Assembly (NCBI GenBank): GCA_001304015.1
Contig: LJUY01000002.1
Coordinates: 62,001-126,000, forward strand
Source of the DNA: a candidate division Zixibacteria bacterium SM23_81
Lineage (GTDB): Bacteria > SM23-81
Length of the DNA: 64,000 nucleotides
Direction: 5' to 3'
This document shows positions 1,696 through 7,087 of the stretch, one piece after another. The stretch's first letter is position 1. Every line of letters begins with the position of its first letter. Made by a program: the position numbers and the translations under genes. Under the pieces are notes generated by a model. That model did no database searches. It was not told the origin of the DNA and saw only the letters and a list, made by a program, of their open reading frames with translations.

Positions 1696-2119
1696 CTTGG
1701 CCTCCTTTTCTCGACCCCAGTTTCAGCGGACCGAGGGCTCTAATCTGCTGTGCAAACTCGTTCATAAGCTCGGCAAACCTCTTCCCCTCCGCGGCGGAAA
1801 TCCATTCCAGCCGAAGCCGTCCATCCTCTAGGCCAAACTGCTTAAGGACCCGCTGAAACAGTTCTATCCTCCGCAAAGTCTTATAATTGCCGTCCTGATA
1901 ATGACAGTCTCCAGGGTGACAACCCCCCACGAAGACCCCATCGGCACCCCGGTCGAAAGCCCACAGAATGTGCTCTGGATCCAGCCGACTGGAGCACATG
2001 AAGCGGATGTTCACCCCGTTGGGAGAATATGTCAGGCGGGAGGTACCCGCCAAATCAGCCCCCGCGTATGTACACCATTTGCAAACAAAACAAATGATCT
2101 TGGGTTCGAACATGATCAC
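1661..2119 (-). CDS. mvhD: MvhD/FlpD-type [2Fe-2S] electron-transfer subunit
   Basis: A 152-residue protein of the MvhD (methyl-viologen-reducing hydrogenase delta subunit) family. Visible family signatures are CFVCKWC near the N-terminus, MCSSRLDP, and GCHPGDCHYQDGNYK, which supply the [2Fe-2S] cysteines. In methanogens MvhD links the electron-donating enzyme to HdrA. Here there is no hydrogenase; the donor module alongside is NuoEFG-like, so it presumably relays electrons between the HdrA/diaphorase part and HdrBC or the SdhB-like protein. The start is either GTG at 2119, overlapping the TGA of the upstream gene (GTGA), or ATG at 2113. Tight overlaps on both sides show translational coupling. 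The acidic-basic tail after residue 130 is not part of the family core. Confidence 0.9.
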   Translation of the reverse strand: MIMFEPKIICFVCKWCTYAGADLAGTSRLTYSPNGVNIRFMCSSRLDPEHILWAFDRGADGVFVGGCHPGDCHYQDGNYKTLRRIELFQRVLKQFGLEDGRLRLEWISAAEGKRFAELMNEFAQQIRALGPLKLGSRKGGQDGGSAKREKED

Positions 2120-3882
2120 TCTCCCAGCACAGCCTTAACCATCTGGCGAATTTGATCGTCGGTGAGGTTTTTCTGCTGGGTGGCCCCGGAAGGACAAGCC
2201 ACCACACAGGCTCCACACCCCTCACACAGCAACTCGTTGACCTTGACGATACCCTTTTCCTCGTCAAATTCTCGGGCATCATAGGGACAGACGGATATGC
2301 ACACCTTGCATCCGCTGCACAGATCTTCGTCAACCACTGCCACGATGGGCTCGTGATGGAGCTTCTCCTGTGAGAACAGGCCGATGACCTTGGAGGCGGC
2401 CCCACTTGCCTGAGCAACGGTTTCGGGAATATCTCTGGGACCTTGAGCGGATCCGGCAAGGAAGAATCCCGAGATGATGCTCTCCACGGGGCGTAACTTG
2501 GGATGGGCCTCACTGAGGAAACCATCCTTGTCGGTAGCCAGCTTCAGGATGCTGAAGAGCTTCTGGCTATCTTGACTGGGCACCATGGCCGTGGCCAACA
2601 CAACCAGATCTGCCGCTATCTCCACCTTTTTGGCCGTGAGGGTGTCGACGCCCCATACCATGAGTTTGTCTCCATCTGGAAACACTTTGGAGACCTTACC
2701 CCTGATGTAGGGGACTCCCTCCTGCTCCGAAACCCGATGATAGAATTCCTCATAGCTCTTGCCCCCGGTGCGCACATCGATATAGAAGATGTAAGGCTGC
2801 CCGTCGTGAACGCGATGTTTATAGAGCAAGGCGTGTTTGGCCGTGTACATGCAACAGATCTTGGAACAGTGAGGGCAATACTTCTCCGGATCTCGGGACC
2901 CCGCGCACTGAACGAACACCACCTCTTTGGGCACTTTGCCGTCCGATGGCCTCTTGACCTCCCCACTCGTGGGCCCTGAAGCGGACAACAGTCGTTCAAA
3001 AGCCAGGCCATCGATGACATCTGGGTATTTCCCATACCCATACTCACCGAGATCAGCCAATGGCAGGGTGTCAAAACCGGTGGCTACCACCACGGCGCCT
3101 ACGTCTTCTTCGACGATCTGGTCTTTCTGCTGGTAGTCAACGGCCTGGGGCCCGCAGACCGTTTCGCACACCCTGCACCCTCCTGTTTTGAAGTACACGC
3201 AATGTTCCTTATCGATGACCGGTATATTGGGAACCGCTTGAGGAAACGGTATGTGGACACACGGTCTGGAAGCCAAATTTCTGTCAAACTCAGAGAGAAT
3301 GGGCCGGACCTTCTTATCGGAGAGAGCCTTCAGATCTATGGCGCCCGTCGGGCAGACAAAGGCACAAGCTCCACAGGTTGTACAGACGTCCGAATACGTC
3401 TCGAAGGGGGGGGTGACCTCTCGACGGTAGCCTCTGTTTTCGAAGCCAATGGCCCCAAAACCCATCACATCGTGGCAGACTCGCACACACAATCCACACA
3501 TGATACATTTTTTGTTGCGCTTTTCTTTCCTGGGCCGAAATCGCGTCTTTTCAACCCCGTACTCTGCGGCTAATTCCTTGATCTCTTCCGCTTCCGGTGC
3601 CTCAGCTAACATAAGCGCCAATATGGATTTGCGCAACCTGATCACTTTCTCCGAATTGGTCTTCACCTCCCCTTCCCAGGCCGGATAGGTACAGGCAGTA
3701 TGCAGTCTCGATCTGCCCTTCCAGATCGTCTCCACCACACAAATACGACAGGCACCATAAGGGGTCAACGATTTATGATAACAAAGTGTGGGAATATGTA
3801 TCCCCAGCTCTCTGGCCACTTCCAATACAGTCTTATTCGGATCGGGAGTGGTTTCAATCCCATCGATAATGAGCTTGTCCAT
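2116..3882 (-). CDS. NuoG N-terminal iron-sulfur domain fused to C-terminal half of HdrA
   Basis: A 588-residue chimera. Residues 1-200 resemble the N-terminus of NuoG/HydA: [2Fe-2S] cysteines 34, 45, 48, 64 and two [4Fe-4S] sets at 126-136 and 167-177. The usual His-Cys3 cluster is not seen. From about 205 the sequence is the C-terminal half of heterodisulfide reductase subunit A, beginning at the conserved IPFPQAVPN segment. It continues with [11 protein letters not shown], the NGD/FAD-associated region, Cys336/339/343, and two terminal ferredoxin motifs (522-532, 553-563). The FAD-binding N-terminal half of HdrA is absent here and is found in the gene at 5795-7087. I chose ATG at 3882 (AGGGG upstream) over an alternative seven codons earlier. 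It likely forms one functional HdrA with the other half and accepts electrons from NuoF. Confidence 0.9.
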   Translation of the reverse strand: [588 protein letters not shown]

Positions 3883-3931
3883 TTTTTCACCCCTGATTTG
3901 CACAAAGAGGCTGATACATCATCTCGATGTT

Positions 3932-5785: not shown

Positions 5786-5794
5786 GGGCTCCCT

Positions 5795-7087
5795 CTATGA
5801 TTCTTTATACCGTTTGAGCAGAGACCGGACCTTATCTGTGGTCACCTGGTGGTAGTCCTGGTCAATCATCACCACTGGTCCAAGGGCACAGCAACCGAGG
5901 CAATTCACAGTCTCCAGAGAGAACTGAGAGTCTGTTGTGGTTTCTCCGCGTGGTATCTCCAGCTGCCGCTCAAATTCTTCCAAAACCCTGGGGGCTCCCC
6001 GGGCATGGCAGGCGGTTCCCATACAAACGGTGATGAGATGTTTCCCTCTTGGCTTTAAGCTGAAAGCGGTATAAAAGGTGGCCACATGGTATACCGAAGA
6101 GAGCGAAACGTTCAACTTCTCGGAGACATATTTCATGGCAAAGGGAGGCAGGTATCGATACTCCTGGTTCACATCTTGCAAAACCTGTATGAGCATCTCC
6201 TTGCCGGGAACACCGGGGTTACTGGGAGCATATCTGGCTAAAATGCGACTGAGTTTCCTGCGTTCTTTTACGTCTATCTCTTTGACGTATTTCGGCGTCG
6301 GCGAAATCTGAGGTTCGTTTCGCACGGGACAAGCCGCCTGGCAATCACCACATCCGGTACACCTTTCTTCGTCTATGGCTCTGGCTTTCTTGAGGACCTT
6401 GACCTTGAAATTCCCCACATACCCAGAGATATCCTCCACCTCAGAATGGGTGTATAGCTTAATATTCGGATGTTGCCCCACATCCACCATCTTGGGTGTC
6501 AAAATGCACTGGGAGCAATCCAGCGTGGGAAAGGTCTCCGAAAGTTGCGCCATATGGCCCCCTATGGAGGGAGCTTTGTCCACCAAAACGACCTCGTAGC
6601 CGCTGTTGGCGATGTCCAGAGCTGCCTGAATGCCTGCGATGCCGGCGCCGATGACTATGGCACGACGGGTAACGGGAACGCTGATGGGCTCCAGAGACTC
6701 ATCCAGCCGCACCTTTTCGACGAGGCTTTTGATGATCTTGATGGCCTTGGCAGTGGCTTCATCTCTGTCCTCGTGAACCCAGCTACATTGCTCCCTGATA
6801 TTGGCAATCTCAACCTGATAGGGATTCAAACCCATGGTCTCTGAGGTTCGGCGAAAGGTCAGTTCGTGCAGGGTCGGCGAACAGGCAGCCACGATGATCC
6901 CGTCCAGCTCCTCTCGCTCGATGGCCTCCTGGACCATTTTCTGGCCGGGATCGGAGCACATGTATTGGTAATTCACGGCGTAGGCAACGCCGGGGTAATG
7001 ACGAATTTCCTCGACGACTTTATCCACATCCACCGTTGTGGCGATGTTAATACCACAGTGACAGACGAAAACTCCGATTCTTTTCAT
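5795..7087 (-). CDS. N-terminal half of HdrA fused to NuoE
   Basis: A 430-residue chimera. Residues 1-260 are the N-terminal half of HdrA: the opening FVCHCG motif, the FAD-binding GAGIAG (147-152), the hallmark CSQCILTPKMVDVG region around 191-205, and a [4Fe-4S] set Cys243-246-249-253 ending in CPVRNEP. HdrA normally continues for another 350 residues. Here the sequence passes at about 265-275 into a NuoE thioredoxin-like domain with [2Fe-2S] ligands Cys355/Cys360 and Cys396/Cys400. The remaining HdrA half is fused to NuoG two genes downstream. HdrA carries the bifurcating FAD in known HdrABC complexes. The frame is clean on both sides of the junction, so this is a real fusion rather than a sequencing break. 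It is followed nine bases later by nuoF. Confidence 0.92.
   Translation of the reverse strand: MKRIGVFVCHCGINIATTVDVDKVVEEIRHYPGVAYAVNYQYMCSDPGQKMVQEAIEREELDGIIVAACSPTLHELTFRRTSETMGLNPYQVEIANIREQCSWVHEDRDEATAKAIKIIKSLVEKVRLDESLEPISVPVTRRAIVIGAGIAGIQAALDIANSGYEVVLVDKAPSIGGHMAQLSETFPTLDCSQCILTPKMVDVGQHPNIKLYTHSEVEDISGYVGNFKVKVLKKARAIDEERCTGCGDCQAACPVRNEPQISPTPKYVKEIDVKERRKLSRILARYAPSNPGVPGKEMLIQVLQDVNQEYRYLPPFAMKYVSEKLNVSLSSVYHVATFYTAFSLKPRGKHLITVCMGTACHARGAPRVLEEFERQLEIPRGETTTDSQFSLETVNCLGCCALGPVVMIDQDYHQVTTDKVRSLLKRYKES

Follow-up and report, generated by a model that had tools for sequence, protein, structure and literature searches.

Introduction

In methanogens, the ferredoxin domain inserted in HdrA is the port through which ferredoxin is reduced. 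Designs described with an NADH-type module at HdrA include type III HdrA, which carries a GltD domain in the loop of the ferredoxin domain (PMC12054007, PMC9012536), and the Bam complex, which combines HdrA with BfuABC as separate subunits (PMC9304861). Characterised members of the Bfu/HydABC family handle NAD(H) and ferredoxin together. The subject of this report is an hdrA gene of the candidate division Zixibacteria bacterium SM23_81 that is split in two by a three-gene cassette of the same general kind. It lies in a window of 64,000 nt, the whole stretch of DNA that was analysed (contig LJUY01000002.1, positions 62,001-126,000), within an operon whose genes are all on the minus strand. The reading that we favour, and consider probable from sequence comparison, is that a HydABC-type NAD(H)/ferredoxin module has been connected to HdrA through its opened ferredoxin domain; this estimate covers the full account of split, cassette, coupling and evolution.

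HdrA is divided between two chimeric proteins

Domain matching reproduced the coordinates, the E-F-G gene order and the two chimeras described in a first-pass annotation of the window. In chimera 1 (P0003), residues 3-256 match Methanothermococcus HdrA (5odc_A 5-259, E value 1e-98) and residues 296-430 match NuoE/HydC; in chimera 2 (P0001), residues 11-195 match the N-terminus of NuoG/HydA and residues 205-595 match HdrA (8rvu_a 271-655, E value 6e-113). Alignment to intact HdrA proteins shows that the two halves are consecutive, as had been proposed, with neither overlap nor loss and a joined length that differs by ~0-4 residues. The joined HdrA aligns to the intact proteins near full length and is therefore complete: the N-terminal cluster domain, the flavin adenine dinucleotide (FAD) domain, and the inserted and C-terminal ferredoxin domains are all present, spread over two proteins in place of one continuous polypeptide. 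Residues E356 and K409 of HdrA, next to the bifurcating FAD, are kept as E303 and K356 of P0001.

The inserted ferredoxin domain has two CxxCxxCxxxC-type motifs, and the cut falls between them. The N-terminal side of the cut was placed correctly at first, with the N half ending at CPVRNEP, whereas the C half does not resume at IPFPQAVPN, as then thought. The real point of resumption is SEFD (P0001 residue 204), 14 residues earlier than a nine-residue stretch in the C-terminal part of HdrA.

Assignment of the cassette to the Bfu/HydABC family

The genes enclosed by the HdrA halves were initially read as nuoE-nuoF-nuoG. A three-subunit NADH-type module is indeed present, but cluster ligands and chain matches identify it as HydABC/Bfu-type rather than as part of complex I. 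The NuoF-like subunit (BfuB) has an N-terminal [2Fe-2S] domain and a C-terminal 2x[4Fe-4S] domain, both lacking in complex I NuoF, and its best matches are Wor-Bfu 9mqx_B, A. woodii HydB, A. mobile NiFe-Bfu and T. kivui HydB (790-740 bits); the score for complex I is 384 bits. For the B2 cluster, the ligands are C458, T496, H545, C551 and C556, with the diagnostic His included; Thr at the second B2 ligand place is common (PMC9304861). All five cluster sites proposed by Schut et al. for bifurcating Bfu enzymes are found in BfuB. BfuA contains A1, A2 and A4-type motifs, with PF13510 and Fer4 matches, and is missing the segment of the His-ligated cluster, as in Type 2, while BfuC has the 24-kDa [2Fe-2S] domain (PF01257).

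A complex I origin was considered and rejected, because the NuoG-like protein is without the His-ligated cluster and the molybdopterin-like domain and the NuoF-like protein has extra B clusters. Judged by these features the cassette is a Bfu/HydABC module, and may bifurcate electrons among NAD(H), ferredoxin and a third substrate. The label "NADH-oxidising" was dropped, as direction cannot be read from sequence.

Distribution of split hdrA genes and an empty site

A search of genomes for the arrangement recovered the same chimeras, with the same junction motif, in independent genomes, which argues against both chance and mis-assembly; at least nine other genomes carry the module in an hdrA gene. 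Fused forms occur in KSB1 (L036), CSMAG_1299 (L037), a Thermoplasmata archaeon (L038, with an assembly gap after it), Zixibacteria RBG_16_53_22 (L041, followed by mvhD-mvhG-mvhA) and a Myxococcota metagenome-assembled genome (L043). In G147 (L152:1610-13000), the fused form stands beside etfAB, an HdrD-like gene and genes for acyl-CoA dehydrogenase, thiolase and 3-hydroxyacyl-CoA dehydrogenase, neighbours suggesting a role of the split HdrA-Bfu in acyl-CoA redox chemistry. In G292 (L153:10931-14573), Flx-like genes follow, and two NADH modules may serve one HdrA. Of 386 relatives sampled for prevalence, four have the fused form. Unfused splits were found in G058, G004 and G064 (L138, L139 and L154, respectively); L098 and L112 show the cut at this same motif in a different class of HdrA, the two-headed type II. 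A scan of viral contigs returned no relatives.

The unfused split operon at L138:4711-7899 has a further peculiarity, in that BfuB is fused, in a product of 1062 residues, to a complete GltD-like domain, which replaces the C-terminal 2x[4Fe-4S].

The counterpart without the cassette is found in a genome of the same family (G001, L040/L155), where a colinear hdrC-hdrB-hdrA-mvhD-frdB-tfrA-mvhG-mvhA operon has hdrA intact at 650 residues and represents the empty site. It had been allowed that the two chimeras could be unrelated paralogues, with an intact hdrA elsewhere; the intact paralogues in the genome reach at most 59% identity, and there is no co-orthologue among them.

Probable origin and movement of the cassette

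The history of the cassette can be traced through the HdrA residues that flank it. Sliding identity between the HdrA of the window and the intact sister gene is mostly 70-88% and drops to 46-54% near the break, where the window remains 68-73% identical to the split copies L036 and L037. L037 shows the same dip against its own intact relative, L046. With the 117 residues next to the break (the borders) removed, HdrA of the window groups with intact L040 (support 100/99) and that of L037 with intact L046 (100/99), and a clade of window, L036 and L037 is rejected (approximately unbiased (AU) test, p ~1e-39); in the tree of the borders alone, window, L036 and L037 join (97/88; 97/93 with L152 included) and a pairing of window with L040 is rejected (AU p 3e-5), these p-values being optimistic since the bounds were set after the identity profile had been viewed. 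In the cassette tree, window, L036, L037 and L039 are united in a single clade (100/99). G+C content at third codon positions is 0.58-0.63 in the cassette and 0.65 in the HdrA parts, a gap too small to date a transfer.

It appears from these trees that the cassette and ~117 border residues of HdrA constitute one clade across hosts and that the other HdrA residues follow the resident intact hdrA. Because cassette and borders share their history with the KSB1 and CSMAG_1299 copies, and the rest of HdrA shares its history with the intact gene of the sister genome, the cassette probably reached the hdrA of the window ready-made, by recombination. Insertion into hdrA at one point, the explanation first offered, agrees with the two chimeras and the empty site, but not in its simple form of a single insertion into this very gene. 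It is unlikely that each hdrA received the cassette in a separate event at an identical position and that the borders of window, L036 and L037 are similar by convergence on a common structural need. The position is a hot spot, other HdrAs (including G000:C49) having GltD inserted in this loop, and splits occur on several HdrA backbones, yet both the cassettes and the borders of the split copies fall into the supported clades given above.

The unfused splits point to a possible source. At L154, the gap in hdrA holds DRTGG, HATPase, an Fe-hydrogenase-like sensor, DRTGG, PHP, HATPase, NuoE, 2Fe-2S and NuoF, then BfuA::HdrA-C, such that most of a hyd operon remains between hdrA-N and BfuA::hdrA-C; L139 has a gene set similar to that of the L154 gap. 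We take the DRTGG/PHP/HATPase set to be that of [FeFe]-hydrogenase hyd operons, a comparison that rests on general knowledge and on the Fe-hydrogenase-like sensor gene, no paper describing this set having been found in the literature search. This gene content suggests recombination between hdrA and a hyd-type operon at ferredoxin motifs that resemble each other, with the HydA catalytic domain yielding to HdrA-C; the resulting cassette would later have moved, with short HdrA borders, to other hdrA genes. The broadest form of this idea, to which we give tentative credence, is that a mobile plug-in derived from a hyd operon has spread with its own HdrA borders into unrelated hdrA genes of bacteria and archaea, making enzymes with two bifurcation sites (the HdrA FAD and the flavin mononucleotide (FMN)-FeS site of Bfu) in series via a ferredoxin domain shared by two proteins, and linking NAD(H), ferredoxin, H2 and fumarate (or acyl-CoA) within a single complex.

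Proposed working of the complex

In the proposed mechanism, the two chimeras would fold together and rebuild one HdrA, so that FMN, the BfuA clusters, the HdrA ferredoxin clusters and FAD would form a single wire. High-potential electrons would pass through HdrC-HdrB-FrdB-FrdA to fumarate, and MvhAGD would exchange electrons with H2. The classical ferredoxin outlet of HdrA would be replaced by a built-in NAD(H)/ferredoxin exchanger, inside BfuA, giving two bifurcation sites in series. The net role would likely be to reduce fumarate (malate to succinate) and so keep NADH, H2 and ferredoxin in balance.

Partners differ among the split loci both at the MvhD port (MvhAG in L041 and L154, Flx-like genes in L153) and on the HdrBC side (FrdAB versus Etf/acyl-CoA genes), whereas the cassette is always at the ferredoxin domain; because its position is constant while the partners on these two sides vary, an NAD(H)/ferredoxin exchanger wired to HdrA is favoured. 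On the fumarate side, FrdA retains catalytic-type HY, RGxG and NRLxxNSL motifs. Methanogen TfrB is a fusion of FrdB-like and HdrB-like parts, and both kinds of match were seen; the analogy supports a putative contact between HdrB and FrdB.

The cassette could instead be a one-way NADH input, with electrons entering HdrA backwards via the ferredoxin port and HdrA alone bifurcating to fumarate and free ferredoxin/H2. Type III HdrA, with GltD in the same loop, has been proposed to take electrons from NADH in this manner (PMC12054007), and L152 has no MvhD partner, so that the cassette must there be the point of NAD(H) exchange. This arrangement is nonetheless improbable, given that BfuB keeps all of the cluster sites, the His among them, that set bifurcating Bfu apart from non-bifurcating NADH modules (PMC9304861), and that H2 and Flx-like donor modules are often already in place at the MvhD port.

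The preferred wiring runs through a ferredoxin fold whose ligands lie on two proteins. Among 14 split arrangements, bacterial and archaeal, that were compared for the ferredoxin motifs, motif 1 on the N protein has four Cys in 14/14 and motif 2 on the C protein in 12/12, and BfuA retains both of its own 4Fe-4S motifs. In dicluster ferredoxins, each cluster has three of its Cys in one motif and the fourth in the other; because of this ligand pattern, and because the cut lies between the motifs, both proteins are expected to supply ligands of the same clusters. Also unlikely, slightly more so than the one-way input, is that the last 4Fe-4S motif of BfuA replaced motif 1 of HdrA, the domain being made in cis on BfuA::HdrA-C and the motif of the N part having taken a new role. 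A BfuA stretch of 12 residues does align directly with HdrA motif 1 (P0001 versus intact HdrA), but the invariant four Cys of motif 1 and the retention of both BfuA motifs are as expected for two complete diclusters.

Several points weigh against the account of a wired, jointly built and transferred HdrA. The BfuA 4Fe-4S motif sits in cis at the place of HdrA motif 1 and could substitute for it. The AlphaFold model of P0001 was too poor for use, with a predicted local distance difference test (pLDDT) score of 50 from five sequences; in the model of P0003, two domains stood apart and confidence was low near the split ferredoxin motif, which is not enough to prove the idea of a half-domain. In a fused form from a Guaymas bacterium (L039:942-4026), the chimeras adjoin, with no nuoF between them. 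The border bounds were chosen post hoc, and convergent adaptation beside the module could mimic transfer. FrdAB, finally, might be an enzyme in its own right that has no more than the operon in common with the rest.

An assembly artefact or decayed pseudogene behind hdrA-nuoE-nuoF-nuoG-hdrA is next to inconceivable and both were rejected, for although the genome is a 99-contig draft, every frame is open, spacing is tight, and independent copies with conserved junctions in many genomes refute either origin.

Organisation of the locus

Table 1. Coordinates of the operon genes and of the HdrA and cassette parts in the window
Feature	Position	Strand	Remarks
Fumarase alpha, class I	9217-10062	-	Directly upstream of hdrC, with beta; from translations and homologues beside other hdr operons, not a family scan
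Fumarase beta, class I	8589-9146	-	From translations and homologues beside other hdr operons, not a family scan
hdrC	8119..8532	-	TIGR03290 1.1e-23
hdrB, two CCG motifs	7161..8081	-	PF02754 7e-21, TIGR03288 1.5e-48
Chimera 1 (P0003), HdrA N-terminal part and NuoE-like subunit in one frame	5795-7087	-	
HdrA N-terminal part, residues 1-259	6311..7087	-	N-terminal domain, first half of FAD domain, first CxxCxxCxxxC of inserted ferredoxin domain; ends at CPVRNEP
Cassette border in HdrA, N side, P0003 residues 206-259	6311..6472	-	Groups with other split genes
Linker and BfuC/NuoE/HydC domain ([2Fe-2S] thioredoxin-like, residues 296-430)	5795..6310	-	PF01257 6.6e-47
BfuB/HydB/NuoF-like subunit, 617 aa	3932..5785	-	N-terminal [2Fe-2S], FMN/NADH domain, SLBB, 4Fe-4S, C-terminal 2x[4Fe-4S]
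Chimera 2 (P0001), NuoG N-terminus and rest of HdrA	2116-3903	-	
BfuA/NuoG/HydA N-terminal part, counted from probable ATG	3319..3882	-	[2Fe-2S] and two 4Fe-4S motifs; without His-ligated cluster segment
HdrA C-terminal part, P0001 residues 204-595, SEFD to end	2116..3294	-	Second ferredoxin motif, rest of FAD domain, C-terminal ferredoxin domain
Cassette border in HdrA, C side, P0001 residues 204-266	3106..3294	-	
mvhD (FlpD family)	1661..2119	-	PF02662 8.8e-51
frdB/TfrB-like iron-sulfur subunit	916..1695	-	
frdA/TfrA-like flavoprotein, 569 aa in full	1..919	-	Continues beyond the window to C70:61210

Intergenic gaps from chimera 1 onward are +9, +28, -4 and -35 bases. The gene for chimera 2 probably starts at ATG 3882, seven codons past the listed GTG, because a GGGGTG stretch precedes this codon and the L037 homologue begins there. 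Beyond the window, frdA is followed by mvhG, mvhA, a two-headed hdrA (1011 residues) and a second mvhD; the two-headed (type II) gene, mvhD and a hydrogenase maturation protease gene, downstream of mvhGA (L116:1706-4741), apparently belong to the same operon as the split hdrA. FlxABC was not found in the operon of the window, nor were genes for the tungstopterin subunits BamB/BamC in the operon as read. Elsewhere in the window, positions 11227-15354 encode a 1375-residue protein that resembles, by eye, TamB/AsmA-type translocation proteins.

Related hdrA genes and wider meaning

An hdrC-hdrB-hdrA-mvhD-frdB-tfrA operon, sometimes with fumarase or mvhGA beside it, is widespread in Zixibacteria, Fermentibacteria, Aminicenantes, Neomarinimicrobiota, Eremiobacterota and Thermoplasmata (L040/L155, L042, L044, L047, L049-L052, L057-L059, L092, L093, L111 and others) and seems to encode a fumarate reductase linked to Hdr. 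A second hdrA of the SM23_81 genome (L117:4434-7925, G000:C49) has GltD/Fer4_20 inserted after FPQAVPNKFVI and is a bacterial type III HdrA, similar to those in L045, L054, L073, L086 and L140. Further hdrA frames, in L118 (G000:C7), L128, L136 and L144, have an in-frame TGA (possible selenocysteine), that of L118 beside an uninserted Bfu module.

The ferredoxin domain of HdrA is a socket that has taken up whole NADH modules on more than one occasion, GltD as an in-frame insert and, at the split loci, a three-subunit module round which the gene is divided. As a natural construct, the split locus could serve to assign electrons to the individual ports of HdrA and to ask if the Bfu core and the HdrA FAD can work in series, which the work on the Bam complex did not settle. 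The locus would also exemplify a multi-gene cassette moving between homologous genes with its own borders, and suggests that a fumarate reductase linked to Hdr, and apparently soluble, is widespread among many uncultured phyla.

Comparison with known systems

The first-pass annotation knew of no described complex with this layout. That holds for the exact layout, but related designs exist: an NADH module at HdrA is already known, with type III HdrA and the Bam complex as precedents for the idea. Neither the split-gene layout, nor a ferredoxin domain built in trans, nor transfer of the cassette was found in the literature searched (open-licence papers only).

In type III HdrA (HdrA9-11 of ANME-1, A10 of Bathyarchaeota), as here, an NAD(P)H-linked module occupies the loop of the inserted ferredoxin domain, where it is a proposed substitute for ferredoxin and has been inserted independently more than once (PMC9012536, PMC12054007). 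Those proteins contain one GltD/NfnB domain in frame in one polypeptide, whereas here three HydABC-type subunits cut HdrA in two at a point ~25 residues earlier in the loop; a family scan of the split locus found the insert to be NuoE/F/G-like, with GltD absent. Bam-Bfu, of class II benzoyl-CoA reductase, likewise unites HdrA-type and BfuABC modules in one complex, but its BfuABC homologues BamI/H/G stand beside the HdrA module and it has a tungstopterin site (PMC9304861); the present operon is without BamB/BamC-type genes, and its modules are fused via split HdrA. Stn/Nfn-Bfu, Fdh-Bfu and HydABC (Bfu Type 1) share a BfuBC core and a BfuA whose N-terminus continues into a catalytic flavin or metal domain. 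In the split locus, one half of HdrA takes the place of that domain, and the other half is joined to BfuC.

The operon has the gene set of HdrABC-MvhAGD, with hdrC, hdrB, the hdrA parts and mvhD in the window and mvhG and mvhA just outside it, and differs in the splitting of HdrA by a Bfu module at the ferredoxin port and in the presence of FrdAB. NADH is linked to HdrABC in FlxABCD-HdrABC as well, although Flx acts at the MvhD/FlxD side and not, as the NADH module does here, inside the ferredoxin domain; G292 (L153) has both. Thiol:fumarate reductase TfrAB resembles the locus in its TfrA-like and FrdB-like subunits beside an HdrB-type CCG subunit, which in the split locus is a separate protein, HdrB, linked to HdrA and HdrC.

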